NCBI GenBank assembly: GCA_020723465.1
Contig: DYIW01000001.1
Span: 14,533 to 52,440, forward strand
Source of the DNA: Phycisphaera mikurensis
Lineage (GTDB): Bacteria > Planctomycetota > B15-G4 > JADJEK01
Direction of reading: 5' to 3'
Length of the DNA: 37,908 nucleotides
A program made the translations under genes and the position numbers. The notes beneath the pieces are model-generated. The model ran no database searches. It was not told the origin of the DNA and was given only the letters and a program-made list of their open reading frames with translations. This document shows, in pieces, positions 19,409-36,496 of the stretch (positions are counted from its first letter, which is position 1; every line of letters begins with the position of its first letter).

Positions 19409-21985
19409 TCACTCCATGCGCGTGGCCGAGGCCACCACCAGGCCGCGCACGCGCAGGGCCGGCGGCACGGTCGCGAGCAGCGCCAGGAGCACGGCGCACA
19501 GGGGCACGAGCGCGATCTCGAGGGGTGTCGCCACGTAGCGCACGTCCAGGCGGCTGATGACCTGGATCGCTTCCACGAGGTGCCGGGACACCGGCAGTCC
19601 CGCGGCCAGGGCGAGGCCGCCGCCGACCAGGCCGAGCGCCGCGGATTCCGCCGCGAGCATGCCGCCGAGCTGCCCGGCGGTGAAGCCGAGCGTCCTGAGC
19701 AGCCCGATCTCGCGCCGCCGCTCCAGCAGCGCCACGGTCAGCGAGTTCCACAGGCCGACGAAGGCGAGCGCGCCCGTGAGCAGGAGGATGACGTGGAAGA
19801 TCCAGAAATCGCGGTTCATGTCGGCCGCGTAGTAGCGTTGGATCTCCCGCGCCGTGCGCACGCGCGCCTGCAGGCGCGGCTCCAGCAGGCCGAGGATGGC
19901 CGCGCGCGTCTGGTCCGGGTCGCGGCCCTCCGCCACGTGGAAGACGTACTGGGTGCCGCGCTCGTCGCCCACGCAGAAGAGCGACATGAAGACGGGCAGC
20001 GCCAGCAAGGCGAAGCTGCGATCGTCGGGGAAGTAGCCGCAGGCGTCGCTGATGGCGGCGACGCGCACCGGGTAGGCGCTGGCGTAGGTCGAGAGGCGCA
20101 CGAAGTCCCCCACCTGGTAGCCGTAGCCGCGCGCCAGGAACTCGGAGAGGATGATCGATCGGCCCTCCCGGAACTCGCGCGCCAGCTCCTCGTCGGCGGC
20201 GAGCTGCGGCGTCCAGCGGATGGCGTGTTCCGGCGGCACGCCGCGGATGGTGAAGGGCGCGTGCACCTCGGCGGACAGGCTGTAGAAGTCAGCCACTCCC
20301 GCGGCGCGCGCGGCCGGTGCGACCTCGTCCTTCAGGACGGCCGCGGCCTGGACGAAGATCCTGCCGCCGAGGGCGCACGCGCCGAAGCGGCGCGTCTCGT
20401 CCTTCAGGCTGGCGGTGATGCCGTGGATCGCCAACACCGCGGCGAGCACCAGGGCGATGCCGACCGCCGAGCCGAAGACGCGGTGGTGCGACCCGCGCGT
20501 CGAGGCCGCGGCGATGGGCCGCTGCAGCGGCCAGGGGAGGAGCAGCAGGTGCAAGAGCGCCTCCACCGCCGCCTGCACCAGGCGCGGCACGAGCAGCACG
20601 GCGCCGAAGGTGAGCGTGAGCCAGAGCGCCATCCAGGCGACGATGCGCAGCACTTGGTCCTGGCGCTCGCCGAGCGGCGGCGACGCGACGATGTAGAGCA
20701 GCAGCAGCCCGCCGGGGAGCAGGGCGAGCACCAGGGCGCGCACGAAGCGCGTCGGATCCGGCCGGTAGGCGATGCGCCCGGCGCGCACCGCCTCGATCAC
20801 CGAGAGGCGGCGCACGCGCAGCAGCGGCGCGATCATCCCCAGCAGGGCCGCGGCCATGCCTGCGCTCACGATCACGAGCACCGCGTCCCAGGGGATCTCG
20901 TGGATGGAGAGCGGCTTGCCGAAACCGAGCGTGGTGATCCCCACGGCGCGCATGAAGTGCGCCAGCGCCAGCGAGAGGGAGAGGCCGAGGAGCGCCCCGG
21001 CCGCGGCCAGGAGCAGGCCCTCGAGCACCACGGCGGCGGCGATCTCGCGGCCGGTGAGGCCGAGGGCGCGCAGCAGGCCGATCTCGCGCACGCGCTCGAC
21101 CAGGGACAGCGAGAAGGCGTTGTAGATGATGAACAGGCCGAGCAGCAGGGAGAGGCAGGCCGCGATGCGGATGGACTTGCGGAAGGCGCGCTGGTCGACG
21201 CGTTCGCCCACGAGCGCGCCCTGAGGGCGCTCCACCACGTAGGCCGACTTGAGCTGCTCGCGCACGTCCTGGTAGATGGCGTCGGGGGCCAGGCGCGCCC
21301 AGTAGAGCGGCTGCACGTGCGCGCCGCGGTACAGTTCGAGGCCGCGCTCGAAGGGCACGAGCACGGCGCCGCGCCGTCCCAGGTCGGCGTCCTCGATCAG
21401 GCCGGCCACGCAGAGCGTCGCGGGCTCGCCCTGGAGCTCCTCCGGGCGCGCCACCAGCACGCCTTCGCGGCACTCGCGCACCGCCGGCAGCACGCGCTGC
21501 AGCACGAGCGCATCCCCCACGCCGAGGCCGAGCTCGGCCGCCAGGCCGAGCGGCAGGAGCACCTCGCTGGCGCCGGGCGAGCTGAAGGACGCGCCCGCGG
21601 CCAGGCGCCAGGCGGCGAAGCACGCGCCGGCCAGCGGGTGCGCGGCGACCAGCTCCAGGTCGCGCGCGGCCTCGGGGCCGCCGCCGGGAGCGAGGGCGCG
21701 GATGCGCGAGAAGAAGACGGGCAGCACCTCCAGCAGGTCGGCCTCACGCAGCAGGGCTTCGGGCACCTCGGGGCGGGGCGTGCCCGCCTCGAGCGGGCGG
21801 ATCTCGACGTCGGGGCGGCCCGAGTACGAGGGACGGCGCAGCACCTCGGTGAGGATGGTGTTGTGGTCGACGATCAGGACCGAGAGGACGGCGGCGATGC
21901 CGACCGCGATGCCGAGGATCGAGGTGAGCGTGCGCGCCGGCCTAGATGCCAAGGACCGCCATGCGATCCGCGATGCGAGCCTCAT
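19409..21985 (-). CDS. ABC transporter permease with two FtsX domains
   Basis: Membrane part of a LolC/MacB-type exporter that uses the ATPase encoded just upstream; the cargo, perhaps a lipoprotein or lipid, is unknown. The 858 residues start with a TM helix near 20-40 and a large periplasmic domain to about 270. A first FtsX domain contains LVERVREIGLLRALGLTGREI. More TM helices (roughly 340-470) and a second periplasmic domain follow, then a C-terminal FtsX domain with LERRREIGLLRTLGFTAGQL. The duplicated layout resembles long YbbP-like permeases. Its ATG lies 44 bases inside the ATPase gene. A start further in (TTG) would remove part of the amphipathic leader, so I kept the ATG. Confidence 0.9.
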   Translation of the reverse strand: MRLASRIAWRSLASRPARTLTSILGIAVGIAAVLSVLIVDHNTILTEVLRRPSYSGRPDVEIRPLEAGTPRPEVPEALLREADLLEVLPVFFSRIRALAPGGGPEAARDLELVAAHPLAGACFAAWRLAAGASFSSPGASEVLLPLGLAAELGLGVGDALVLQRVLPAVRECREGVLVARPEELQGEPATLCVAGLIEDADLGRRGAVLVPFERGLELYRGAHVQPLYWARLAPDAIYQDVREQLKSAYVVERPQGALVGERVDQRAFRKSIRIAACLSLLLGLFIIYNAFSLSLVERVREIGLLRALGLTGREIAAAVVLEGLLLAAAGALLGLSLSLALAHFMRAVGITTLGFGKPLSIHEIPWDAVLVIVSAGMAAALLGMIAPLLRVRRLSVIEAVRAGRIAYRPDPTRFVRALVLALLPGGLLLLYIVASPPLGERQDQVLRIVAWMALWLTLTFGAVLLVPRLVQAAVEALLHLLLLPWPLQRPIAAASTRGSHHRVFGSAVGIALVLAAVLAIHGITASLKDETRRFGACALGGRIFVQAAAVLKDEVAPAARAAGVADFYSLSAEVHAPFTIRGVPPEHAIRWTPQLAADEELAREFREGRSIILSEFLARGYGYQVGDFVRLSTYASAYPVRVAAISDACGYFPDDRSFALLALPVFMSLFCVGDERGTQYVFHVAEGRDPDQTRAAILGLLEPRLQARVRTAREIQRYYAADMNRDFWIFHVILLLTGALAFVGLWNSLTVALLERRREIGLLRTLGFTAGQLGGMLAAESAALGLVGGGLALAAGLPVSRHLVEAIQVISRLDVRYVATPLEIALVPLCAVLLALLATVPPALRVRGLVVASATRME

Positions 21986-22685
21986 TACGCTCGGCTCCCT
22001 GGACGACGTCCGGCAGCAGCAATCCGTCCTTGAGGAAACGCACCAGGTCGGCGTAGGCCGCGTCCCTGGGGTTGTGGGTCACCAGGAGCACGGTGCGCTG
22101 GAGCTCGTCCACGGCCCGGCGCAGCAGCTCGAGCACGTCGCGGCCGGCGCGCGTCGACAGGTTGCCGGTCGGCTCGTCGGCGAGCACGATCGGCGGCTCG
22201 TGCACCACCGCGCGGGCGATGGAGGCGCGCTGCATCTCGCCGCCCGAGAGGGCGTGCGGGCGGCGGTCCAGCAGCCCGCCCAGACCAAACAGCTCCACGA
22301 TCTTCTGGAAGCGGGGATCGGTGCGCGGCCGCTTCACCCCGGCGAGGGAGAGCGGGATGCCGATGTTCTCGGCCACCGTCAGCGTCGGCACGAGGTTGAA
22401 GAACTGGAAGACGAAGCCGATCTGCTCGCGCCGCAGCAGGGTACGTTCCTTCTCGCTCATCTCGGCCAGGTTCCTGCCCGCCACGCGCACCTCCCCGGAC
22501 GAGGGCGCGTCCAGGCCGGCGAGCAGGTTGAGGAGCGTGGACTTGCCGCTGCCGGACGGCCCGGTGACGGCGACGAAGCTCTTCTCCTGCACGGAGAAGG
22601 TGACGTCCTTCAGAGCGGCGACGTGCTGCTTCCCCTGGTCGTAGAGGCGGAAAAGGCTGATCGTCTGCAGGACAGGCGTGGTCAT
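21942..22685 (-). CDS. ABC transporter ATP-binding protein, LolD/MacB type
   Basis: Energises the two-FtsX-domain permease downstream. The 247 residues carry Walker A GPSGSGKSTLL, the Q-loop region FVFQFFNLVPTLT, signature LSGGEMQRASIARA, Walker B IVLADEPTGNL and the switch histidine in LLVTHN. FFNLVPTLTVAENIGIPL is typical of the LolD/MacB group, not of nutrient importers. The gene follows the TMTC-like gene by 79 bases and overlaps the permease by 44 bases. It ends with a tail of about 25 residues after the switch region. Confidence 0.93.
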   Translation of the reverse strand: MTTPVLQTISLFRLYDQGKQHVAALKDVTFSVQEKSFVAVTGPSGSGKSTLLNLLAGLDAPSSGEVRVAGRNLAEMSEKERTLLRREQIGFVFQFFNLVPTLTVAENIGIPLSLAGVKRPRTDPRFQKIVELFGLGGLLDRRPHALSGGEMQRASIARAVVHEPPIVLADEPTGNLSTRAGRDVLELLRRAVDELQRTVLLVTHNPRDAAYADLVRFLKDGLLLPDVVQGAERNEARIADRMAVLGI

Positions 22686-24940: not shown

Positions 24941-26110
24941 TCAGCGGTGGGAGTCGAAGAAGTCCTTGATCGAGGAAACGACGTACTCCTGCTGGTCGTA
25001 GTTGATCCCCGGGAAGAGCGGCAGCGAGAGCACCTCGTTCGCCGTCCTCTCGGCCTCCGGCAGGTCGCCCGGCGCGTAACCCAGGTGCTTCATGCTCGCC
25101 TGGAGATGCGCCGGGATCGGGTAGTACACCTGGACGCCGATTCCCTGCTCGACCAGGTAGGCGCGCAACTCGTCGCGCTGGTCCACGCGGATCACGTACT
25201 GATGCCAGTTATGCACGCGCTCCCTGGCCACGCGTGGCAGGATGACGTCGTCCAGGAGCTGATGCTCCTCGAACAGCGAGTTGTACGTGGCGGCGGCCTC
25301 GGCGCGCTGCAACGTCCAGTCCGTGAGGTGACGCAGCTTGACCCGCAGGGTGGCGCAGGTGAGGGCGTTCAAGCGGTAGTTGCCCCCCACGATCGGATGG
25401 ACGTTCGCCTCCGACTGCCCGTGATTGCGGATCTGCCGGATCTGCTCGACCACACCCTCGTCCTTGGTCACGACCGCGCCGCCCTCGCCCAGGGCGCCGA
25501 GGTTCTTCGACGGGTAGAAGGAGAAGCAGCCGGCGTCGCCCAGGGCGCCGGCCGGTGTGTCCTTGTAGCGCGCCAGGATCGCCTGGGCCGCGTCCTCCAC
25601 GACCATCAGGCTGAACTGGTCGGCCAGCTCCAGGATCGGGTCCATCTCGCAACACTGGCCGTAGAGGTGCACCGGGACGATGGCGCGGACCTTCGTGTGC
25701 TCGCTGTGGTGCTCGGAGACCTTCTTGCCGTTGATGACGCCGTCATCGACGTAGTCGTAGACACGTTCCGGCTTGATCCCGCACGTCTCGGAGTCGATGT
25801 CGACGAAAACCGGCTTGGCGCCGAGCCTTACGATCGAGGCGACGGTGGCGAAGAAGGTGAAGGGCGTGGTCAGGACCTCGTCGCCCGGGCCCACGCCGAG
25901 GGCCTGGAGCGCGGCGACCAGGGCGTCCGTGCCGTTCGAGACCGCGGCGGCGTACGGCACGCCGATCAGCTCCGCCAGCTCGGTCTCGAAGGCCTGCACC
26001 GCCTCGCCGCCGATGAACCTTCCGGAACGGACGATCTCGTCCATGGCGGCGCGCAATTCATCCATGATCGGCTCATGGAGCAGTTCGAGATCCAGTTGGG
26101 GGACCTTCAT
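24941..26110 (-). CDS. DegT/DnrJ/EryC1/StrS-family aminotransferase
   Basis: PLP-dependent enzyme that usually aminates a keto group on a nucleotide-linked sugar for surface glycans. The 389 residues show FIGGEAVQAFE, SNGTDALVAAL near 58-68, EDAAQA near 172-177 and the PLP lysine Lys202 in FSFYPSKNLGALGEGG, then QIRNHGQ. The ATG at 26110 follows CGGAG and gives the usual N-terminus (MKVPQLDL); the frame is open upstream but lacks a good site. An insert around 119-140 (DYVDDGVINGKKVSEHHSEHTK) seems larger than usual. It heads the series TMTC-like, ABC ATPase, permease, suggesting glycan or envelope modification; substrate unknown. Confidence 0.92.
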   Translation of the reverse strand: MKVPQLDLELLHEPIMDELRAAMDEIVRSGRFIGGEAVQAFETELAELIGVPYAAAVSNGTDALVAALQALGVGPGDEVLTTPFTFFATVASIVRLGAKPVFVDIDSETCGIKPERVYDYVDDGVINGKKVSEHHSEHTKVRAIVPVHLYGQCCEMDPILELADQFSLMVVEDAAQAILARYKDTPAGALGDAGCFSFYPSKNLGALGEGGAVVTKDEGVVEQIRQIRNHGQSEANVHPIVGGNYRLNALTCATLRVKLRHLTDWTLQRAEAAATYNSLFEEHQLLDDVILPRVARERVHNWHQYVIRVDQRDELRAYLVEQGIGVQVYYPIPAHLQASMKHLGYAPGDLPEAERTANEVLSLPLFPGINYDQQEYVVSSIKDFFDSHR

Positions 26111-26157
26111 GGCGTCTCCGTTCCATACCGCTCGGCGCGCTGGCCGCAAACGCGTCC

Positions 26158-26192
26158 ACGGTACACGGGCCTGCCCGTGCTTCAACGTTGAA
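26158..26192 (-). promoter_or_regulatory. Candidate promoter and operator for the DegT-TMTC-ABC unit
   Basis: The minus strand carries TTGAAG (26185-26180), a 16-base spacer and TACCGT (26163-26158). The spacer is exactly an inverted repeat, CACGGGC and GCCCGTG around two bases (26164-26179). The -35 box lies within the perfect 12-base palindrome TTCAACGTTGAA (26181-26192). Two adjacent dyads on a promoter suggest regulator binding. The -10 match is poor, and the whole assignment is inference. Confidence 0.3.
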
Positions 26193-26317
26193 ATCCCGAT
26201 CGAGACCGCTCCGCGCGGCCGGTTCCGGGCGACCCGCGTGCAGGGAGCCGAATCCGGGTGCGGAATCGCGCGGGGCTGCTAGGCTCTGCTCGTTCTCGCA
26301 CTCAGGAGGTCACCGGC

Positions 26318-27148
26318 ATGATTTGCGCGCTGCTGCTCCTCGCCGCCAGCCTGTCGGTGCCGCAGCCGGCAGAAGAGCCGGACGCCGCGGCCATCCTCAA
26401 GCGCGCGGCCGAAGCGCAGCGGGCCGGTGACTTCGCGGGCGAGGTTCTCGACTTCCACGTCAAGCTCTACCTGCAGGTCCGGGACCCGGAACGCGGCAAG
26501 ATGGAGTTCGACGTCGAGCGCAAGTACAAGGCGCCGGACCGCATCTGGACGCTCGTCCGGGAGAAGGCCTTCTCCGACGCGGTCTATGAAGAGGGTTACG
26601 ACGGCACGGGCGCCTGGCGCTACGACCGCAAGACCGAGAAGCTGGTGCGCTATGAGGGCCCGGACTTCAAGACCGACCGCCTCAAGGTCCTCCGGGAACT
26701 GGACGACATGCGGCAGCTCCTGCGGTTCTTCTTCCTCGAGCGGCAGATCGAGAACCTGAAGGAACTGAAGAGGCTCCCGGACGAGCCGGACGAGCAGGGC
26801 GGCGGACCGAGCCTGGTGATCGAGGGCCAGGGCGATCTCGAAGAGGGAGAGGGGGGACTGGTGCGCGTGCGGGCCTGGATGGAGCCGGAGACCTTCGTGC
26901 TGCGGGGTGTGCGGATCGAGGATCTGGAGCAGCCGGGGAAGTCCCTGGGCTTCCGCTTCTCCCACCACCGCCAGACCCCTCAGGGCCTCTACTTGCCGGG
27001 AGCGGTCCAGGTCTATCGGAACGGCGAGGAGGAGTGGTCGGAGAAGATCGCGCTCGTCACCGAGGAAGCAGAGGACGGCGCCGACCAGAACAGCATCCGC
27101 TTCAACGTCGGCCTCACGGACGAGGTCTTCTCGCCGCCGGAAAAATGA
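26318..27148 (+). CDS. Exported LolA-like protein of unknown function
   Basis: A 276-residue protein with an N-terminal signal sequence (MICALLLLAASLSVPQPA) and a mature part resembling outer-membrane lipoprotein carrier/sorting folds: DFAGEVLDFHVKLYLQ, then GKMEFDVERKYKAPDRIWTLV, DGTGAWRYDRKTEKLVRYEG, and later strands ending FRFSHHRQTPQGLYLPGAVQVY. The match is to the general beta-sheet pattern, not to a family I can name, so a lipid-carrier role is speculative. The ATG is fixed by a perfect AGGAGGT seven bases upstream. It overlaps the propeller gene by four bases (ATGA) and heads a three-gene unit. Confidence 0.7.
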   Translation: MICALLLLAASLSVPQPAEEPDAAAILKRAAEAQRAGDFAGEVLDFHVKLYLQVRDPERGKMEFDVERKYKAPDRIWTLVREKAFSDAVYEEGYDGTGAWRYDRKTEKLVRYEGPDFKTDRLKVLRELDDMRQLLRFFFLERQIENLKELKRLPDEPDEQGGGPSLVIEGQGDLEEGEGGLVRVRAWMEPETFVLRGVRIEDLEQPGKSLGFRFSHHRQTPQGLYLPGAVQVYRNGEEEWSEKIALVTEEAEDGADQNSIRFNVGLTDEVFSPPEK

Positions 27149-28194
27149 CGCACGCGCGCGCCGCCCTCGCCCTGCTCGCCGCCTCGCTCGCGGGCGGAGC
27201 GAACGGCTGCGCGGGGGAGCGGAGCGCCGGGCGCGGCGAGGCCTACTTCATCGTGGACGCGGACGCGGCCGGCGGGGAGGCGGGCGCCCTCGGCGGCGCG
27301 CTGTTCCGCTTCGAGCGCGCCACGGGCGAAACACGCCTGTTCTGCGCCGACCCGCGCTTCGTCGACCCGCAGCTCGCGCTTACGGCCGAGGACGGCGACC
27401 TGTTGCTCGTCGACTTCGCCGCCGAACCGGACGGCCGCGGCCGCGCGGGCGCCGTGTTCCGCATCGACGGCCGCTCGGGACAGGTGAAGGCGTGCTTCAC
27501 GCCCCAAGGCTTCGCTGCTCCGACCGGGCTCGCCCTGGGCGTGGGCGGTGAGGTCTACGTCACGGACCGCCGGGCGCGCCCGCCCGGGGCTCAGGGCCAG
27601 GGCGCCCTGTTCGCGCTTTGCCTGGCGGACGGTTCCTGCCGCGTGGTCGCGACCGACGCGCGTTTCGTTGCTCCGGCGTTCGTCCTGCGCCAGGAGGATG
27701 CGTCGCTCCTGCTGCTCGACGCGGACGTTCCGGGGAAGAAGCCCGGAGAGGAGGGGGCCGTCTTTCGCGTCGACCCGAGCCGCGGCGCGGTGAGTGAATG
27801 CGGCCGCCTGGCGGGAGCGGTCTCGCCGCTCGGCCTGCTGGCCGAGCCCGAGGGGACCTTCCTCGTCTTCGACGCCAATGCCGACCCGCGGGGCGCGGGT
27901 GCGCCTCACGGCGCGATCCTGCGCTTCGACCCGGACTCGGGCGCGACCGAGGTCGTGGCCTGCGACCCGCTGTTCCGCGACCCGGTGCGCGGTTGCGTCG
28001 CGGATGACGGCCTCGTGCTGTTCGTGGACGCCAACGCCGATCCGGAGGGGCGCGGGCCGGACCCGGCCGGCCGCGGCCAGAACGCCACGGGCGGGGGCGC
28101 GATCTTCAGCCTGGACCGCGTCTCGGGCGCGGTGCGGGTGGTGGCGGCGCCGGCCGCGTTCGTGAACCCGGTGTGCATCGTGAGGGCGCCGTGA
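27145..28194 (+). CDS. Exported six-repeat beta-propeller-like protein
   Basis: A 349-residue secreted protein, possibly a lipoprotein with Cys22 (GANGC is an atypical lipobox). After residue 35 it consists of six repeats of 51-52 residues. Each has an Asp-rich loop (starting near 38, 90, 141, 192, 243 and 295; best form DANADP) followed by a strand GA(I/V/L)(F/L)R and then PxxxxFxxP. This matches an NHL/SMP-30-like six-bladed propeller, where such loops often bind calcium; the assignment is from periodicity. The last repeat has an insert rich in Gly and Asp. It is joined by ATGA and GTGA overlaps to both neighbours. No enzymatic signature is seen. Confidence 0.8.
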   Translation: MTHARAALALLAASLAGGANGCAGERSAGRGEAYFIVDADAAGGEAGALGGALFRFERATGETRLFCADPRFVDPQLALTAEDGDLLLVDFAAEPDGRGRAGAVFRIDGRSGQVKACFTPQGFAAPTGLALGVGGEVYVTDRRARPPGAQGQGALFALCLADGSCRVVATDARFVAPAFVLRQEDASLLLLDADVPGKKPGEEGAVFRVDPSRGAVSECGRLAGAVSPLGLLAEPEGTFLVFDANADPRGAGAPHGAILRFDPDSGATEVVACDPLFRDPVRGCVADDGLVLFVDANADPEGRGPDPAGRGQNATGGGAIFSLDRVSGAVRVVAAPAAFVNPVCIVRAP

Positions 28195-29255
28195 GGCGCG
28201 TGCTGGCGAGGAGCGCGCTGGCGTTCGGCGTCGTGCTGCTGTGCCTGGGGCTGGCGGAGGTCGCCGTTCGGTGCTTCTTCAGCGCGGGCCTCGAGGAGCC
28301 CGCGCTGCACCCCGAGGCGAACCGCCTCTTCGCCGAGGCCGGCATGCTGCGGCCGGTGGAGCGAGGCGGGGTGCGCTATCTCGGCGCGCCCGGCGCCTCG
28401 GTGGTGGTGCGCGGCATCGAGTACCGGCACAACTCCCTGGGCCTGCGCGACGACGAGCTCGCCGCGGCCGAGCCGCCGGGCCAGGAGTTCCGTATCCTCG
28501 TGCTCGGGGACTCGACGACCTACGGCTGGGGCGTGCGCCAAGAGGAGACCTTCTGCGCCGTGCTCGAACACCTGCTGCGCGAGCGGCGCGCGGCCGGGGC
28601 CGTGCCCTGCACCGTGGTGAACGCCGGGCAGCCCGGCTACAACGCACGCGACGAGGAGGCGCTCTTTCGCCGCCTCTGGGAGCGCGTGCGGCCCGCCCTG
28701 GTGCTGCTCGTCTGGTACCCGAACGACCTCGAGCGGCTCGGCTTCCACGCGGGGCGGGACGGCTTCCTCTTCTGCGATCCCCTGCCCCTGCCCGAGCGCT
28801 GGAAGCCGGAGCTGTGGCGTTCCTTCCTCTACCGCAGGATCTCCACCGGGGTGCTGGAGCACATGCGCCAGAGCGGCAGCTACGTGTTCGGGCAGGGCGA
28901 GAACCGGAGCGACTGCGGCTCGAGGATCGCGGCGCTGCACCGGGCGGTCGCCGCGGCGGGCACGCGCCTCGCCCTCGTCGACATGCCCTGGCTGCTGAAC
29001 GCCGCGGATGGCCCGGTGCTGGCGCAGGAAGGCTACCCCGGCGCCGAGCACAGCGCCTGGCTCGCCGGCATCGCCGCGGCCGAGCGACTGCCCCTCCTGC
29101 CGCTGCTCGACGCGCTCACCGGCGAACCGGCGGCGCGCTACTGGTGCCTGCTCGACCCCCCAGACATTCACCCGAACGCCCTGGCGCACCAGCGCTCTGC
29201 CCAGGCCCTGTTCGACTTCCTCGTCGAGCAGCGGCTCGTGCCCCTGGCGCACTGA
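28191..29255 (+). CDS. Membrane-anchored SGNH/GDSL-type hydrolase
   Basis: Predicted esterase or acyl-hydrolase of the SGNH superfamily. The 354 residues have one N-terminal membrane segment (about 8-27), then block I LGDSTTYGWG with Ser108, block II VVNAGQPGYN, block III WYPNDLE, and block V DIHPN near 325-329. The usual Asp three residues before the block V histidine is Pro here, with Asp at minus two and minus five, a small deviation. The GTG start overlaps the propeller stop (GTGA). It is the last of a three-gene exported unit; a role in trimming or deacylating a surface polymer is a guess. Confidence 0.85.
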   Translation: MRRVLARSALAFGVVLLCLGLAEVAVRCFFSAGLEEPALHPEANRLFAEAGMLRPVERGGVRYLGAPGASVVVRGIEYRHNSLGLRDDELAAAEPPGQEFRILVLGDSTTYGWGVRQEETFCAVLEHLLRERRAAGAVPCTVVNAGQPGYNARDEEALFRRLWERVRPALVLLVWYPNDLERLGFHAGRDGFLFCDPLPLPERWKPELWRSFLYRRISTGVLEHMRQSGSYVFGQGENRSDCGSRIAALHRAVAAAGTRLALVDMPWLLNAADGPVLAQEGYPGAEHSAWLAGIAAAERLPLLPLLDALTGEPAARYWCLLDPPDIHPNALAHQRSAQALFDFLVEQRLVPLAH

Positions 29256-29382
29256 CCACAGCTCGGCGGCGCCGCAACCGAACTCGGCAGCTTGCGTCCA
29301 GCCGAGGCGCGTGGATCGCCCCCTGCCTTGGCAAGGCCAACGCCGCCGCCAGTCGGGAGTCCGAAGAGAATCGGAAGGTGGC

Positions 29383-31116
29383 TCAGAAGCCCGCGCGTTT
29401 GAACCAGCGCTCCAGGTCGGCCGCGGCGAAGCGAATGGAGGTCGGCCGGCCGTGCGGGCAGGCCTGGGTCTCGGGCAGCGCGGCCGCCTGGTCCAGGAGC
29501 GCCGCGATCTCCTCCTCGGCGAGGTCGGTGCCCGCCTTGACCGCCGCGCGGCAGGCCATGCTCATGAGCGCGCGCTCCAGGGGCTCGCGTGCCTCCGCGC
29601 CCGCGCTCGTCTCGCTCTCCAACGCGGCCAGAAGCAGCTCCCGGGCGGAGGCCCCCTGCAGCAGGGCGGGCACCGCGTGTACAGCGAGCGCGGTCTCGCC
29701 CAGGGCCGTGACCTCGAGTCCGAGCCGCGCGAACTCCTCCCCCATCTCCTCGGCGCGGAGCACCTCCGGCCGCCCCACCTCGACGATCTCCGGCACGAGC
29801 AGGCGCTGGCTCCGGATGCCGGCCGCCCGCTGCTCCTGGCGCAGGCGCTCGAAGAGCACGCGCTCGTGCAGCGCATGCTGGTCGACGACGACCAGCTCGT
29901 CTTCCGCCTGGAAGAGCAGGTAGGTGCGAAAGAGCGTGAGCCAGCGCCGGCCGGTGCGCGCCGGCAGGGCCGCGGCGCCGGCCGGGGGCGCGGTCGTTTC
30001 CACAGCCGGCGCCGCGGGCGCGGGCGCGAGCGGGCGCTCCCACACGCCGCGCGGGAAGCCGAGGAAGCGGCGCGCGGGCGCAGTGACGCCAGCAGCGGCC
30101 GCGCCTGGCTCCGCTCCCGGCCGCGGCGCCAGGTCCGCGCCGCGCAGGGCCTCGAGCACGACGTGGTGGACGGCGCGGAACACGCGCGCCGCGTCGCGGA
30201 AGCGCACCTCGGTTTTGGCCGGGTGCACGTTCACGTCCACCTCCGCCGGATCGAGCGAGAGGAACAGCAGGTAGGAGGGCTGCAGCGCCGGGGAGAGGAA
30301 CTGGTGATACGCCTGGCGCAGCGCCGCGCGCAGCGTGCCGTCCTTGACCAGCCGGCCGTTGACGTAGGTGTGCTGGCGTGCCGCGCGGGCGCGCGCCGCG
30401 TCCGGCCGCCCGAGCAGCGCCTCGACGTGCATGCCGGCGCTCGGCCCGCTGGCGGCGATCGCTCCCGCGGCGAGGTCGCGGCCGTAGGCGCTCTCCAGGC
30501 GCTCGCGCCGGGTCGCCGCGGCGGCCGCCTGAAAGAGCACGCGGCCGTCGCTCTTCATGGAAAAGGCCACGCCATCGGCCGCGAGCGCCGCCTGGATCAC
30601 CTGGTCGAGGCAGCGGCTCGCCTCGGCCGCGTCGCCTTTCAAGAAGCGCGCCCGGGCCGGGACGTTGAAGAAGAGGTGCTGCACCTCGACGAGCGTGCCT
30701 GGCGGCGCGCCGCAGGGCCGGGGCTCGCCGGTCGCGCCGCCGGTGCACGCGATCTCGAAGGCCTCCTCCGCGCCGGCCGGGCGCGACACCAGCCGCGCCC
30801 GCGCCACGGCGCCGATGCTCGCCAGGGCCTCGCCGCGAAAGCCGTAGGAGGCGATGGCGAGCAGATCGTCCAGGGCCGAGAGCTTGGACGTGGCGTGCGG
30901 CGCGAACGCCAGGCACAGGTCGGCGCGGTCCATGCCGCAGCCGTCGTCCTGCACGCGGATGAGCCGCTTGCCGCCGCGCTCGATCTCCACGTCGATGCGC
31001 CGCGCTCCCGCGTCGAGGGCGTTCTCGAGCAGCTCCTTGACCACGGAGACGGGTCGCTCGATCACTTCGCCCGCGGCGATGCGGTCCACGACCTCCTGGG
31101 CCAGACGGCGGATCAT
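29383..31116 (-). CDS. mutL: DNA mismatch repair protein MutL (endonuclease-type)
   Basis: Links MutS mismatch recognition to strand removal. The 577 residues have the GHKL ATPase at the N-terminus (AAGEVIERPVSVVKELLENALDAGA, DDGCGMD, GFRGEALASIGA, FFNVPARARFLK), a proline/alanine-rich linker near 335-400, and a C-terminal domain. The C-terminal domain carries the nicking-endonuclease metal motif DQHALHERVLFE, with ACR and CPHGRP, so this MutL should cut DNA itself and the organism probably lacks MutH. The ATG overlaps the holA stop (ATGA). It is the last gene of its series and faces the SGNH gene across 127 bases. Confidence 0.97.
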   Translation of the reverse strand: MIRRLAQEVVDRIAAGEVIERPVSVVKELLENALDAGARRIDVEIERGGKRLIRVQDDGCGMDRADLCLAFAPHATSKLSALDDLLAIASYGFRGEALASIGAVARARLVSRPAGAEEAFEIACTGGATGEPRPCGAPPGTLVEVQHLFFNVPARARFLKGDAAEASRCLDQVIQAALAADGVAFSMKSDGRVLFQAAAAATRRERLESAYGRDLAAGAIAASGPSAGMHVEALLGRPDAARARAARQHTYVNGRLVKDGTLRAALRQAYHQFLSPALQPSYLLFLSLDPAEVDVNVHPAKTEVRFRDAARVFRAVHHVVLEALRGADLAPRPGAEPGAAAAGVTAPARRFLGFPRGVWERPLAPAPAAPAVETTAPPAGAAALPARTGRRWLTLFRTYLLFQAEDELVVVDQHALHERVLFERLRQEQRAAGIRSQRLLVPEIVEVGRPEVLRAEEMGEEFARLGLEVTALGETALAVHAVPALLQGASARELLLAALESETSAGAEAREPLERALMSMACRAAVKAGTDLAEEEIAALLDQAAALPETQACPHGRPTSIRFAAADLERWFKRAGF

Positions 31117-32228
31117 GAGCGCGCCTGGCGCCGCGCCGGAGCGCGCCCGGCCGCCGCCAGGGCACAGAGCCGCACGATCAGGCGCTCGAGCAGCGTCTCC
31201 GGCGGCTCGCTGCTCTTCAGGGCGCGATCCGCTTCGGCCAGGACGTGTACGGCCGCGCTCGCGCGCCGCACCAGCGGCAGGTCCACCTCCTTGCCGAGGT
31301 AGTAGAGCTGGCCCGGGTTCTTGATGGCCAGGACGCGCTGCATCTCCTCCTCGGGACAGTGCGCGGCCCTGAGGGAACGGAACCGCGCCAGCAGGCGCAG
31401 GCGCTGATGCAGGAGCGCCGCGAGCCCGCTGGCGATGCCGCGCGCGTCGTTCACGCGCCGGCCGCCGCGGTCGGTCGTGCCTTCGCGCAGCATGCCGCGC
31501 AGCCGCAGGAGCGCGGCGCGCACGTTCCCCACCGCGACCTCCTGGAAGAGCTGGAACTGGTCCCAGGCGGCGCTCCGCGGCACGAGCGCGCCCACGTCCG
31601 GCAGCGTCACCTCGTTCTTCCCGGCGAGGTAGAGCGAGAGCTTCTCCATCTCCCGGGCGACGAGCATGAGGTCGTTGCCGGTGCGGCCGGCGAGCTCCGC
31701 GGCGGCCCGCGGCGCGAGCTCCAGGCCGTGGGCGCGCGCCTCGGCCAGGATGGCCGCCAGCAGCTCGCTTCCAGCCGGCAGGACGCCCTGGCCGCCGGGC
31801 GCCGCGGCATCGGCCCGCGGCCGCGGGCACTTGATCAGCCCGCCCGTCTTCTTCAGCTCGTTGGCGAAGCGCAGGCGCAGGTCGAGCGAGCGCATGAGCA
31901 GCACCAGGAGGTTGCCCGCGGCGATCTTGAGGGTCGCCTCCAGCGCCTTCCCGTGCCGCTTCCACAGCGCGTCGCCGTCGCGCGCCACGATCACCTTGAG
32001 GCCGCCGAACAGGGGCCGCGAGGCCAGGTCCGCGAGCAGCCTCGACAGCTCGAGGTCGGTCCGCTCGCTGCCCTCCGCGGCGAGCGAGATCACGCTCGCC
32101 GCGTCGCCGGCGCGTTCGAGGATCTGGGCGAGCAGGCGCTCCTTGGCCCGCTCCTCGTCCCCCACCAGGGCAATGACCGGCGGCAGCACCTTGGGGAGGA
32201 CCGGGACCGCCGGCTCGCGCGGGTTCAT
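31113..32228 (-). CDS. holA: DNA polymerase III subunit delta
   Basis: Clamp-loader subunit that opens the sliding clamp. The 371 residues match HolA by layout: an N-terminal AAA+-like part (PPVIALVGDEERAKERLLAQIL, LFGGLKVIVARDGD, NLLVLLM), the central segment LAGRTGNDLMLVAREMEKLSLYLA, and a C-terminal collar (RLLARFRSLRA, LLERLIVRL). It lacks a functional P-loop, as expected for delta. The ATG overlaps the prenyltransferase stop, and its own stop overlaps mutL, both by four bases. The long open frame upstream of the ATG is antisense-like shadow. Confidence 0.88.
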   Translation of the reverse strand: MNPREPAVPVLPKVLPPVIALVGDEERAKERLLAQILERAGDAASVISLAAEGSERTDLELSRLLADLASRPLFGGLKVIVARDGDALWKRHGKALEATLKIAAGNLLVLLMRSLDLRLRFANELKKTGGLIKCPRPRADAAAPGGQGVLPAGSELLAAILAEARAHGLELAPRAAAELAGRTGNDLMLVAREMEKLSLYLAGKNEVTLPDVGALVPRSAAWDQFQLFQEVAVGNVRAALLRLRGMLREGTTDRGGRRVNDARGIASGLAALLHQRLRLLARFRSLRAAHCPEEEMQRVLAIKNPGQLYYLGKEVDLPLVRRASAAVHVLAEADRALKSSEPPETLLERLIVRLCALAAAGRAPARRQARS

Positions 32229-33121
32229 TGCAGCACCTCGATCAACGTGGCCGCGCAGAGCAGCAGGCTGACGCAGCCGTTGGCCGTGAAGAAGGCCAGG
32301 TTCACGCGCGACAGGTCGTACGGCTTGACCAACGAGTGCTCCCAGGCGAGCAGCGCGGCGCAGGCCGCCACGCCCGCGCCGTAGCTGCCGCCGAGCGCCG
32401 CGGCGCGTCCCAGGGCGAGGAGCAGCACCAGCATGGCGGCGTGCAGCAGGCGCGCCACCACGAGGGCGCGCGCCACGCCGCAGCGCGCGGGAATGGAGCG
32501 CAGGCGCGCGCCGCGGTCGAAGTCGACATCCTGGCAGGCGTAGAGGATGTCGAAGCCCGCGGCCCAGCAGAGCACGGCGAGGCCGAGCAGGGCGGGGATG
32601 AGGCACGAGGCGTCGAGCACGCCGCGCACCGCGATCCAGGCGCCGAGCGGGGCAAGGCCGAGCGCCAGGCCGAGGACGAAGTGGCTGGCCGCGGTGAAGC
32701 GCTTGGTGTGCGAGTAGCCCAGGAGGAGCGCCAGCACCGGGAACGACAGGACGAAGGCCAGCGTGTTCAGGAACCAGGCGGCCGCCACGAAGACGCCGCT
32801 CGCGCCGAGGACCAGGAGCGCGACCTCGCGCACGCTCACCAGTCCGGCGGGGAGATGGCGGGCGCGCGTGCGCGGATTCTGTGCGTCGCTCGCGCGATCC
32901 GCCAGGCGGTTGTAGGCCATGGCCGCGGTGCGCGCCGCGACCAGGCAGACGAGCACGAGCAGCACGGTGCGCCAGCCGGGCAGGCCGCCAGTACCCGCCA
33001 GGAACAGCGCCATGAGCGCGAAGGGCAGGGCGAAGACCGTGTGCGAGAAGCGCACCAGCTCCAGGTAGAGGCGCAAGCGCCCGGCCAGGGAGCGGGCGCG
33101 CCGCGGCGGAGCCGAGGTCAT
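32225..33121 (-). CDS. ubiA: UbiA-family prenyltransferase (MqnP/4-hydroxybenzoate type)
   Basis: Attaches a polyprenyl chain to an aromatic quinone precursor in the inner membrane. The 298 residues contain eight or so membrane segments and the two Asp-rich motifs of the family: NRLADRASDAQNPRT near 71-85 and DILYACQDVDFDRGARL. With UbiX and MenG/UbiE nearby, it fits menaquinone synthesis by the futalosine route (MqnP) or ubiquinone synthesis. The sequence alone does not decide which, though KPYDLSRVNLAFF-type ends are familiar from MqnP-like proteins. It is linked by four-base overlaps to ubiX upstream and holA downstream. Confidence 0.88.
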   Translation of the reverse strand: MTSAPPRRARSLAGRLRLYLELVRFSHTVFALPFALMALFLAGTGGLPGWRTVLLVLVCLVAARTAAMAYNRLADRASDAQNPRTRARHLPAGLVSVREVALLVLGASGVFVAAAWFLNTLAFVLSFPVLALLLGYSHTKRFTAASHFVLGLALGLAPLGAWIAVRGVLDASCLIPALLGLAVLCWAAGFDILYACQDVDFDRGARLRSIPARCGVARALVVARLLHAAMLVLLLALGRAAALGGSYGAGVAACAALLAWEHSLVKPYDLSRVNLAFFTANGCVSLLLCAATLIEVLQ

Positions 33122-33720
33122 TCCGCCTCTCCTGACGCCGCGGGCCAGGTGGCGCGCAGCGCGGCGCCGCCATAGAAGACCGCGGCGGCGCGATCGACCA
33201 CGGTGTCCACCAGCTCCTCGACCGTGCGCGGTCCGCCGTAGAAGGACGGCATGGCCGGCAGGACGATCGCGCCGGCCTCGGCCGCGGCCGCCAGGTTGCG
33301 CAGGTGGATGCGGCTGAGCGGCGTCTCGCGCGGCACGAGCACCAGCGGCCGCCGCTCCTTGAGCGTGACGTCGGCCGCGCGCTCGATGAGGTTCTGGGAG
33401 GTTCCCGCGACGATGCGCGCCAGCGTCCCCATACTGCACGGAATGACCACCATGCCGTTCACGGCCGCGCTGCCGCTCGCCACGTCCGCGGCGCAGTCGG
33501 TGGCCGGCAGGCGGCGCACGCGCCGCGCGCCCTGGTCCAGCCAGCCGGCGAGGGGCTGCTCCGCGGGATCCGGCGAGAAACCCAACTCCGCGCGCGCCAC
33601 CAGCTCTCCCGCCGCGGAGATCACGAAGTCGACCTGCGCGCCGAGCTGCACGGCACGCAGGATAAAGCGCACGCCGTACAGGGCGCCGCTGGCTCCGGTC
33701 ATGGCCACGACGAGCCGCAT
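33118..33720 (-). CDS. ubiX: Flavin prenyltransferase UbiX
   Basis: Makes prenylated FMN, the cofactor of UbiD-type decarboxylases. The 200 residues show the FMN-binding start VVAMTGASGALYGVRF, the middle IPCSMGTLARIVAGTSQNLIERAADVTLKE, and RPLVLVPRETPLSRIHLRNLAAAAEAG, all typical of UbiX/Pad1. I chose the ATG at 33720; two TTG codons just upstream are less likely. It overlaps the prenyltransferase by four bases. No UbiD partner lies in the window, so that enzyme must be encoded elsewhere if the pathway is complete. Confidence 0.95.
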   Translation of the reverse strand: MRLVVAMTGASGALYGVRFILRAVQLGAQVDFVISAAGELVARAELGFSPDPAEQPLAGWLDQGARRVRRLPATDCAADVASGSAAVNGMVVIPCSMGTLARIVAGTSQNLIERAADVTLKERRPLVLVPRETPLSRIHLRNLAAAAEAGAIVLPAMPSFYGGPRTVEELVDTVVDRAAAVFYGGAALRATWPAASGEAE

Positions 33721-33750
33721 CAACAACCTGGTCGCGCGGTGCAGGCGCGG

Positions 33751-34503
33751 CTACCCGCCGCCGGCCGCAGCGCGCAGGTCGTAGAGCACGTCGTACAGGG
33801 CGTGCAGGTAGACCACCACCGCCAGGCCGCGGCCGGCGAACACCAGGCCCAGCAGTATACCGGCAATGGCGCGGAAGGCGAACGCGCGCGGTTCGTACGG
33901 CTCGCCGTAGGGCGCGGCGTGGTGGTAGTAGGCGAAGGCGAACGCCGAGACGAGCAGCGCCAGCAGGAAGGCCACGGGACGCGAGGTGCCGCACAGGCGC
34001 AGCGCCAGCACGTACAGTCCGCCCAGCACGATGAGCCGGAACAGCAGCTCCTCGTAGATGCCGGCGCTGATGGACGCCAGCACCGAGTACTCCAGGGAGG
34101 AGGGAACGCGCGGCGTCTGGACGCCGAGCTCGAGCGGGCCGGCCACGAAGGCCACCACCGGGCCGAGCAGCAAGGCGAGCAGCAGGCATTCGATGAGGAA
34201 CGCCGGGAAGAGCCGGACGCAGGGCAGGCGCAGCGCGACCACGCGCCACACCGCCGCCACCACCACCAGGACGAGGAAGGCCTGCAGGTAGCCGGCGGCC
34301 GGGCCGAGGTACCAGAAGAGCTCCTTGAAGGCCTGCTCGACCGCGTTGCGCGTGTCGCTGCCGCCGGCGCGCAGCAGCACCTCATAGAGGACCAGCAGAG
34401 GAGTGACGTAGACCAGCGAGACCGAAACCCTGCGGCTTTCCCGCAGGTACGTCTCGATGCCGAGGGACGCCGCCGCCCGCGCCTCTGCGTTCTGTTGGGC
34501 CAT
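33751..34503 (-). CDS. CPBP-family intramembrane protease-like protein
   Basis: A 250-residue polytopic membrane protein of the CPBP/Abi group, which includes Rce1-like glutamic proteases. About seven hydrophobic segments are visible. The motifs are present: GIYEELLFR with paired glutamates near residues 150-158, then FAYYHHAAP, and HALYDVLYD near the C-terminus. I chose the ATG at 34503 over a TTG three codons earlier. It lies between menG and ubiX, 30 bases before ubiX. Its substrate is unknown, and a link with quinone synthesis is only suggested by position. Confidence 0.88.
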   Translation of the reverse strand: MAQQNAEARAAASLGIETYLRESRRVSVSLVYVTPLLVLYEVLLRAGGSDTRNAVEQAFKELFWYLGPAAGYLQAFLVLVVVAAVWRVVALRLPCVRLFPAFLIECLLLALLLGPVVAFVAGPLELGVQTPRVPSSLEYSVLASISAGIYEELLFRLIVLGGLYVLALRLCGTSRPVAFLLALLVSAFAFAYYHHAAPYGEPYEPRAFAFRAIAGILLGLVFAGRGLAVVVYLHALYDVLYDLRAAAGGG

Positions 34504-34577: not shown

Positions 34578-35354
34578 TCAAGCGCTGTTCGCGTCCTTCA
34601 GCGCAGAGCACAGCGCCACCACGCCGAACGCCAGGCTCTGCGGCGCCTCGGGCCGGAGGCCGGCGCGCTCCAGCTCGGCCAGGAGCTCGGCAGGGGGCGG
34701 GAAGCGATCCACGCTGGCGGGCAGGTAGCGGTAGGCGGCGGGGCTCTGCGCGCAGAGGGCGGCGATGCGCGGCAGCAGGAAGCCGCAGTAGAGACGCCGG
34801 CAGGCGCCGAACAGGCCGCGCCGCGCCGGCGCGAACTCCAGGATGACGAGCCGGCCGCGCGGCTTGAGCACGCGGGCGATCTCGGCGAAGGCGCGGCCAC
34901 GGTCGCTGAAGTTGCGCACGCCGAAGGCGACGGTGACCACGTCAAAGGCCGCGGCGGCAAAAGGCAGGGCGAGGGCGTCGGCGGCCACGAGCCGCAGTCC
35001 GCGTTCCTTGCGCGCGGCGCGGCGCAGCATCTCCATGCTGAAGTCCGCGCCGAACAAGACTGCTTCCGGGCGTGCCGCGCGCAGCGCCGCCGCCACGTCG
35101 CCCGTGCCGGTGCAGAGGTCGAGCACGCGCGGCCGCGCCAGGCCGGCGAGCGCGGCCGCGGCCGCGCGCCGCCGCCAGGAACGGTCGAGCGTGCCGGAGA
35201 GCAGGCGGTTGAGCAGGTCGTAGCGCCCGGCGATGCGGTCGAACATGGCGCGCACCTGGCGCGCCTCGGGCGCGCCCGGCGTCGGGGCGGCGTCCGCGCC
35301 GCGAAGCTTCGTCGTCTGCACGCGGGGCATGGTGCTGCGGCTCGCGGGCAGCAT
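34578..35354 (-). CDS. menG: Menaquinone/ubiquinone C-methyltransferase
   Basis: SAM-dependent C-methylation of the quinone ring, the last step of menaquinone synthesis (MenG) or a ubiquinone step (UbiE). The 258 residues carry MFDRIAGRYDLLNRLLS, the SAM loop VLDLCTGTGDVA, GADFSMEML, and AFGVRNFSDRGRAFAEIARVLKP then RLVILEFA, all closely typical. The start is uncertain: ATG at 35354 or ATG at 35330, neither with a good Shine-Dalgarno. It heads the quinone-repair series and diverges from ruvB across about 70-100 bases. Whether the product is menaquinone or ubiquinone is not settled by sequence. Confidence 0.93.
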   Translation of the reverse strand: MLPASRSTMPRVQTTKLRGADAAPTPGAPEARQVRAMFDRIAGRYDLLNRLLSGTLDRSWRRRAAAAALAGLARPRVLDLCTGTGDVAAALRAARPEAVLFGADFSMEMLRRAARKERGLRLVAADALALPFAAAAFDVVTVAFGVRNFSDRGRAFAEIARVLKPRGRLVILEFAPARRGLFGACRRLYCGFLLPRIAALCAQSPAAYRYLPASVDRFPPPAELLAELERAGLRPEAPQSLAFGVVALCSALKDANSA

Positions 35355-35427
35355 AGCGCGCCCCGGCGATTCCGCGATCGACTTGAATGGCGCGTCCGAT
35401 ACACTCGCCAGCCAGGAGTCGGACGAC

Positions 35428-36465
35428 GTGACGCGAGACGATGATGCCCAGGCCGTGCGCTACGCCGACCTCAACCGCCGCACCGAGACGGACGGGGCGC
35501 TGCGGCCGCGCACGCTGGACGAGTTCATCGGCCAGGAGCGCGTGCGCCGCAACCTGAGGGTCGCCATCCAGGCCGCGACCAAGCGCGGCGAGCCGCTCGA
35601 ACACCTGCTCCTCTCCGGCCTGCCGGGTCTGGGCAAGACCACGCTCTCGCACATCGTCGCCGCGGAATTGGGCGTGGATATTCGCGTCACCTCCGGCCCG
35701 GCGCTCGAGCGCACCGGCGACCTGGTCGGCCTGCTCACCAACTTGAAGCGCGGCGACATCCTCTTCATCGACGAGGTGCATCGCCTGCCGCGCATCCTCG
35801 AGGAGTATCTGTACTCGGCCATGGAGGACATGGCCATCGACATCGTCATCGACCAGGGCCCCGCGGCGCGCAGCGTGCGCCTCAGCCTGGAGCGCTTCAC
35901 CCTCATCGGCGCGACCACGCGCGAGGGGCTCCTCACCGCTCCCTTCCGCGCGCGCTTCGGGCTGCTCGAGAAGCTCGAGCTCTATCCGGAGGAGGAGCTG
36001 CGCCAGGTCATCATGCGCTCGGCCGAACTGTTGCAGGTAGTGGTCGACGGGCCGGCCGTCGATCTCATCGCCAGCCGCGCGCGCGGCACGCCGCGCGTGG
36101 CCAACCGCCTGCTGCGGCGCGTGCGGGACCTGGCGGACGTGCGCTCGGCGACGCGCCTCACGGCTGATCTGGCGCGCGAGTGCCTCGGCCACCTCGGCAT
36201 CGACGACGCCGGCCTGGAGCAGACCGACCGCAAGATCCTGGCCTGCCTGGCGCGCCACGGCGGCGGACCGGTGGGCATCAAGACCATCGCCGCCGCCGTG
36301 GGCGAGACCGAGGACACGCTCGAAACCGTCTACGAGCCGTATCTGCTGACCCTCGGCTTCCTCATCCGGACGCCGCGCGGCCGCGTGCTCGCCGAGGCAG
36401 GGCGCCAGCACATCGGAGGGAGCACCCCGGGTGGAACCTGCGGGCAGGCGCGGCTGTTTCCTTGA
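35428..36465 (+). CDS. ruvB: Holliday junction branch-migration ATPase RuvB
   Basis: Hexameric motor that moves Holliday junctions with RuvA. The 345 residues show LRPRTLDEFIGQERVRRNLRVAI, Walker A SGLPGLGKTTLS, Walker B ILFIDEVHRLPRILEE, the sensor LIGATTREGLLTAPFRARFG with the arginine finger, and a winged-helix C-terminus (GGGPVGIKTIAAAVGETEDTLE, YEPYLLTLGFLIRTPRGRVL). I chose GTG at 35428 because AGGAG precedes it by about ten bases and it gives a normal N-terminus; upstream in-frame starts would be longer than usual. ruvA and ruvC are not in the window. Confidence 0.96.
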   Translation: MTRDDDAQAVRYADLNRRTETDGALRPRTLDEFIGQERVRRNLRVAIQAATKRGEPLEHLLLSGLPGLGKTTLSHIVAAELGVDIRVTSGPALERTGDLVGLLTNLKRGDILFIDEVHRLPRILEEYLYSAMEDMAIDIVIDQGPAARSVRLSLERFTLIGATTREGLLTAPFRARFGLLEKLELYPEEELRQVIMRSAELLQVVVDGPAVDLIASRARGTPRVANRLLRRVRDLADVRSATRLTADLARECLGHLGIDDAGLEQTDRKILACLARHGGGPVGIKTIAAAVGETEDTLETVYEPYLLTLGFLIRTPRGRVLAEAGRQHIGGSTPGGTCGQARLFP

Positions 36466-36496
36466 GGGTGCGCGGCCGGCGCGCGGCGCCTCGCGG

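Follow-up and report, generated by a model that had tools for sequence, protein, structure and literature searches.

In the periplasm, the carrier LolA takes up lipoproteins released by LolCDE, passes them to the outer membrane and shields an acyl chain. LolA-like carriers and SGNH lipases also occur in the envelope-lipid operons of lipocone proteins (PMC12419801), where, in the passages concerned, LolA-like and SGNH genes accompany different lipocone families; in that paper, the string "planctomycet" occurs 0 times in the main text and once in the full-text count. Here we describe a locus of three overlapping genes, g1, g2 and g3, in a stretch of 37,908 nucleotides (the window), which is part of contig C188 of a planctomycete genome (5.8 Mb in 456 contigs). 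Each part of the locus belongs to or resembles a known kind, and the arrangement is ordinary in type. A literature search, with most subscription papers outside its scope, gave no description of the g2-g3 pair, of the triplet or of a mutL-linked LolA-like gene, and we know of no description of the arrangement.

An original prediction, made from the DNA sequence, had proposed that the three genes form a single system, for which co-occurrence of the triplet in several lineages would count as support. We favour, with moderate confidence, another reading, namely that the operon holds two units, a functional pair g2-g3 and an independent g1 carrier, which are neighbours in one planctomycete family. 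The tempting three-gene system is thus split into two units with different distributions. On the one side there is a propeller with an SGNH enzyme, a testable pair; on the other side there is g1, a predicted LolA-fold family without a Pfam model and with a nearly fixed genomic address beside mutL. The features are given below, with the coordinates of g1, g2 and g3 from the list of open reading frames and those of the ribosome-binding site and the overlaps from the sequence.

26304-26309, plus strand: Shine-Dalgarno AGGAGG of g1, 8 nt to the g1 ATG
26318-27148, plus strand: g1, 276 aa, ATG start; LolA-superfamily carrier-like protein, probably exported
27145-27148, plus strand: ATGA, overlap of the g1 stop and the g2 start
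27145-28194, plus strand: g2, 349 aa, ATG start; predicted six-bladed NHL/YWTD-like beta-propeller, probably exported, possibly a lipoprotein
28191-28194, plus strand: GTGA, overlap of the g2 stop and the g3 start
28191-29255, plus strand: g3, 354 aa, GTG start; predicted SGNH/GDSL hydrolase with a hydrophobic N-terminal anchor
29383-31116, minus strand: convergent 3' neighbour of g1-g2-g3, presumably mutL by its sequence, which in related genomes usually lies tail-to-tail with g1
24941-26110, minus strand: divergent gene upstream of g1, presumably a DegT-type aminotransferase

The three reading frames, both junctions and the AGGAGG are as the original prediction described them. Overlaps and a Shine-Dalgarno sequence are ordinary operon features; the repeated 4-base overlap between g2 and g3 tells more.

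We searched for g2 in 392 genomes of the phylum, an even sample of a larger group, scoring 5 candidates per genome. Full-length g2 is present in 8 of the 14 genomes of the window's order with at least 383 bits, and the next score in the sample after 383.6 bits is 39.7 bits. No full-length g2 was found outside the order among the 392 genomes, where the weak partial matches reach at most 39.7 bits. A class-wide g2 search covers the same 14 order genomes, and a scan of named genomes for g2 relatives gave JACQZJ010000047.1 and JAEUIB010000071.1, two contigs from metagenome-assembled genomes of Planctomycetota that are apparently those of G001 and G003.

The gene g3 comes directly after g2 in 6 of the 8 genomes with g2; in G004 it follows across one opposed gene and in G013 it sits at a matching contig end. 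Each of the 8 genomes has its top-scoring g3 relative beside g2. In a tree of 32 SGNH rows, of which the 24 unlinked ones are a chosen subset of the SGNH proteins of these genomes, the 8 linked g3 fall into one group of 9 (support 87/80), which also takes in a further SGNH protein from G013. One could argue that all three genes are co-transcribed by chance and that g2 and g3 have no common substrate, given that SGNH relatives are plentiful (11 matches in G000, the genome of the window, g3 included) and that propeller-like matches are common (61 of the 392 genomes have weak partial g2 matches only). We consider this rather unlikely: the adjacency of g2 and g3 is kept at three places, the 4-base overlap is found in 6 of the 7 same-contig junctions (the window, G001, G003, G005, G007 and G011, not G004), and the linked g3 cluster among the 32 SGNH rows. 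Since SGNH relatives are many and the same one is kept beside g2, the association goes beyond what is expected by chance. The g2-g3 pair is a recurrent unit, and linkage gives good support to the pairing.

The three places belong to three different families of the order, f1, f2 and f3. In f1 (G000, G001 and G003), g2-g3 lie between g1 and mutL. In f2, the G004 pair, whose two genes are separated by a RibD_C gene of the opposite strand, has topA next to it and a gene like that for leucine dehydrogenase (LeuDH) nearby, while in G013 g2 lies at one contig end beside the LeuDH-like gene and g3 at another contig end with topA next to it. A contig break between g2 and g3 is likely in G013; the two contigs have not been joined. 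In f3 (G005, G007 and G011), g2 is immediately preceded in all three genomes by a gene of its own strand for a zinc-ribbon membrane protein, and past g3 comes an oxidoreductase gene of the Gfo/Idh type in the opposite orientation. Past the zinc-ribbon gene, G007 and G011 have a DUF72-like gene, the G005 contig ending there. Pfam was run on the G007 proteins; LeuDH, TopA, DUF72 and the names of the neighbours in G005 and G011 are presumed or given by likeness.

Two observations concern the surroundings of the pair. The f3 zinc-ribbon genes are at L040 10195-11259, L041 11078-11998 and L039 8077-9030, and the G007 copy has weak matches to DUF4013 and B-box, both below the cut-off. In G004, a diverged propeller-like gene (L042 6364-7335, 31.2 bits to the g2 profile) lies upstream of g2 with one gene between them.

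The distribution of g1 is a different one. With a profile of six g1 proteins and 6 candidates scored per genome, g1 is found in 43 of the 392 genomes, that is, in 14 of 14 in the order and in 29 of 378 others. Of the partial g1 proteins, those of G010 and G013 were left out of the g1 set A7 and that of G002 was kept. The triplet g1-g2-g3, on the other hand, is limited to 3 of the 14 order genomes (G000, G001 and G003), all from one of the three families, and g1 occurs elsewhere without g2-g3. We therefore reject the idea that the triplet is a system found again in several lineages. The presence of g1 is independent of g2-g3.

This bears on the proposal that g1-g2-g3 are one dedicated envelope system, in which g2 and g3 would act on a lipid or lipoprotein carried by g1. 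The tight spacing in all three f1 genomes with the locus fits it, as do the hydrophobic N-termini, the lipoprotein-carrier fold predicted for g1 and the possibility that g2 is a lipoprotein. However, 6 of the 14 order genomes have g1 but no full-length g2 match (less surely G002, where the contig ends inside g1), in 5 further ones g1 and g2 are on different contigs with different neighbours, and the gene upstream of the pair differs in each family. A single three-part system is thus only partly supported and, in our view, unlikely; the unit that recurs is g2-g3.

To describe the neighbourhood of g1 we read 27 loci besides the window, 13 from the other order genomes and 14 from the 29 genomes outside the order. 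The latter are mostly the better-scoring ones; the other 15, G145 included, were left out. In 22 of the 27 loci g1 and mutL are arranged tail-to-tail, at a distance within about 105 bp in 17 loci (as bounded by tblastn) and of 358-3067 bp in 5. In G001, g2-g3 sit inside the gap between g1 and mutL, as they do in the window; in G003 they come after g1, on a contig that breaks off within g3. Among the 5 loci without the mutL pairing, the contigs of G002 and G010 end at g1 and those of G229 and G003 end 381 and 2031 bp past it. The fifth, G009, is the sole locus read that has no mutL in the 8.7 kb beyond g1 although its contig continues (L044 8423-9286). In the order genomes other than the three with the triplet, g1 is not joined by g2-g3, which lie elsewhere if present; with the exception of G009, its neighbour there is mutL in every case in which the contig reaches far enough.

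One might go further and see in g1 an uncatalogued lineage of the LolA superfamily in Planctomycetota, which sits beside mutL, takes lipids or lipoproteins to the outer membrane in genomes where a classical LolA is difficult to detect, and has been recruited in the family of the window to serve only the g2 lipoprotein propeller and the esterase. We regard this as very improbable. The LolA family PF03548 is found in 7 of the 39 g1-bearing genomes searched (4 of 14 in the order and 3 of 25 outside it) and in 7 of 25 genomes without g1; the 25 g1-bearing genomes outside the order come from the 29 there, with G050, G116, G138 and G149 left out. Outside the order there is no clear exclusion between g1 and PF03548 (3 of 25 against 7 of 25), and the difference is too small to draw an argument from it. 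That g1 is the canonical LolA of its host was considered as well and rejected, because G000 has a separate PF03548 LolA on contig C345 (C345:20852-21358).

The fold of g1 was predicted with AlphaFold (AF2) from an alignment of 26 sequences (predicted local distance difference test, pLDDT, 90.4; predicted template modelling score 0.84). The first twelve Foldseek matches of the model are LolA, LolB, lipoprotein-sorting proteins or DUF1329 (E from 4.4e-9 to 3.9e-5), and the top five VIA matches have Z of 15.2, 15.0, 14.5, 14.2 and 13.8 over 211-218 residues with a root-mean-square deviation (rmsd) of 4.7-6.0 Å. The model thus supports a LolA-type fold, as had been suggested from the sequence. Compared with the LolA/LolB superfamily (sorting proteins 3bk5 and 3buu, P. 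gingivalis LolA3 9tp6, DUF1329 4z48), the predicted fold is alike (VIA Z 13.8-15.2 over 211-218 residues, rmsd 5.4-6.0 Å), but g1 is only 11-15% identical in the Foldseek alignments, has no Pfam match and has mutL as its neighbour in most loci read. Neither a Pfam family at E<=1 nor an NCBIfam family at E<=0.5 matches g1. PF03548 is not among the 8 weak Pfam families found for the 26 g1 members at E<=0.5; PF17131 (LolA_like) has no match in g1 itself and matches one of the 26 members at E 0.013, and none of the 3 matches of the PF17131 search falls at g1. By analogy with LolA, the likeliest role of g1 is to shield an acyl chain in the periplasm. Little of the envelope transport of Planctomycetota has been charted, so a carrier-like gene present in all 14 order genomes seems a fair target.

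For g2, the AF2 model (pLDDT 86.1) has 24 strands in six four-stranded blades, and its VIA matches to LRP4 (3v64, Z 28.2, 250 aligned residues) and nidogen (1npe, Z 28.1) have an rmsd of 2.3; designed six-bladed propellers match it as well. A six-bladed beta-propeller is thus supported by the model, in agreement with the repeat propeller proposed earlier. The predicted fold and the repeat style are shared with the six-bladed NHL/YWTD propellers, but g2 is only 14% identical to 3v64 and 1npe and reaches no family cut-off. The NHL Pfam model gives 18.5 bits (E 0.002) against a cut-off of 20 and the NCBIfam model ScyE_fam gives 35.6 bits against a cut-off of 80, with the ScyD/ScyE models below their cut-offs. 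By sequence profile, g2 is similar to PknD (1rwi), to the designed Pizza6 proteins and to ScyD/ScyE of NCBIfam.

From the alignment of g2 (A4), two proteins encoded next to g2 in G004 (present in A1) and the G001 g2, with its in-frame stop, were left out. In each of the six blades, an Asp closes or nearly closes the first strand; four blades have D in 7 of 7 rows, the other two D or E. Asp at such a position is usual in NHL-type blades, and a metal site made of the six Asp, which we had considered, was set aside. A Cys is found near the end of the N-terminal hydrophobic stretch in 7 of 7 aligned relatives, while the strict lipobox [LVI][ASTVI][GAS]C fits 1 of the 7 rows and does not fit the window copy (ANGC). 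Judging from these residues, g2 may be a lipoprotein.

The protein g3 matches Lipase_GDSL_2 (PF13472) with E 9.6e-13 and 49.4 bits at a cut-off of 32.9. Its alignment (A2) has 7 rows, with the G001 protein lacking its N-terminal part and the G013 protein left out, and G106-D107-S108, G146, N178-D179 and D325-x-H327-x-N329 are invariant in all 7. The Pfam match together with the Ser, Gly, Asn and His blocks supports, at the level of sequence, membership of the SGNH/GDSL hydrolases, so that the SGNH fold guessed in the original prediction is supported. In textbook SGNH esterases block V reads D-x-x-H, whereas in g3 the Asp stands two before the His in all 7 rows. Other SGNH relatives also use D-x-H, so we assign g3 to the superfamily without placing it in the subgroup of textbook esterases. 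In addition to the four blocks and the Pfam match, g3 shares profile matches to esterases with TesA and the Lipase_GDSL_2 proteins, but it differs from them in its hydrophobic N-terminal anchor, in the D-x-H and in the coupled propeller gene.

The D-x-H (D325, H327) would also suit an SGNH-fold acyl- or acetyltransferase of the AlgX/PatB kind, with g2 holding the polymer. This seems quite improbable to us: the best Pfam match is Lipase_GDSL_2, above its cut-off, the solved relatives of g3 by sequence are esterases, lipases and thioesterases (the best stretches cover only about residues 92-180), and no membrane O-acyltransferase match was found among the 19 neighbouring proteins, a part of the neighbours, that were scanned in Pfam.

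In the two-unit reading, g2 would be an exported six-bladed propeller, possibly with a lipid anchor, and would recognise or display a polymer or protein of the cell surface. The enzyme g3 would be an SGNH esterase anchored in the inner membrane, its catalytic domain facing outwards, and, by the habits of its family, would remove ester-linked groups from the ligand of g2. The two would be translationally coupled and act together in the envelope. The independently conserved g1 would be a periplasmic LolA-superfamily carrier, shielding an acyl chain of its lipid or lipoprotein cargo. In the family of the window g2-g3 would have come to lie between g1 and mutL, where transcription from the g1 promoter probably includes them. 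The predicted folds are compatible with the originally proposed action on a lipid, glycan or acylated polymer.

Several points weigh against this reading. In all three f1 genomes that have the locus, g1 and g2 are spaced about as closely as g2 and g3 (the junction is ATGA in the window and in G001 and a 3-nt gap in G003), and in f1 all three genes may now be one unit. All 8 genomes with g2-g3 also have g1, which is equally present in the remaining 6 order genomes. Outside the order, loci with better scores made up most of those read. In the tree, the branch uniting the linked g3 carries no star, 2 changes are needed for the label, and the unlinked rows were chosen. The Foldseek TM-scores of g1 are modest (0.22-0.46 by query length for matches with E<=0.001) despite the good E-values and VIA Z; we therefore treat g1 as a fold assignment and do not claim that it is LolA. 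The fold of g3 is assigned from its Pfam match and residues, whereas those of g1 and g2 come from models. Finally, G001 is one of the 3 triplet genomes and one of the 6 overlap genomes. In its contig stretch L037 1035-4472, g2 has an in-frame TGA at codon 201, the start region of g3 leaves the frame of the window and the mutL match is shorter than mutL of the window, perhaps through assembly errors. Because three neighbouring genes are affected, a poor contig is likelier than decay.

A comparison between the window and G001, which is of the same genus, gives ratios of nonsynonymous to synonymous substitution rates (dN/dS) of 0.31 for g1, 0.25 for g2 and 0.47 for g3, with the first 29 codons of g3 left out and the one stop codon of the G001 g2 skipped. 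These values are consistent with three protein-coding genes under selection. As to the export or membrane signals proposed for all three products, the N-terminal hydrophobic peak of g1 and g3 is the maximum of the protein when averaged over 11, 15 or 19 residues; in g2 it tops the protein only at 11 residues (2.29 against 1.88) and not at 15 or 19. In positions 26050-29450, a sigma-70 scan gave 0 promoters, and a terminator scan gave 2 terminator-like sites against 1.3 in shuffles.

Some further genes of the window may be mentioned. An FtsX/MacB-type permease (858 aa) and an ATP-binding cassette (ABC) ATPase are encoded at 19409-22685 between smpB and a tetratricopeptide repeat (TPR) gene, and the matching G003 stretch (L038 6917-7599) has no such permease/ATPase pair. 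The run from 29383 to 34503 consists of mutL and of holA-like, ubiA-like, ubiX-like and CPBP/Rce1-like genes, and its order is kept in many related loci inside and outside the order; these names are largely presumed, with Rce1-like coming from Pfam. A SpoIID-domain protein (36431-37831) overlaps the end of a gene (35233-36465) that we take to be RuvB-like.

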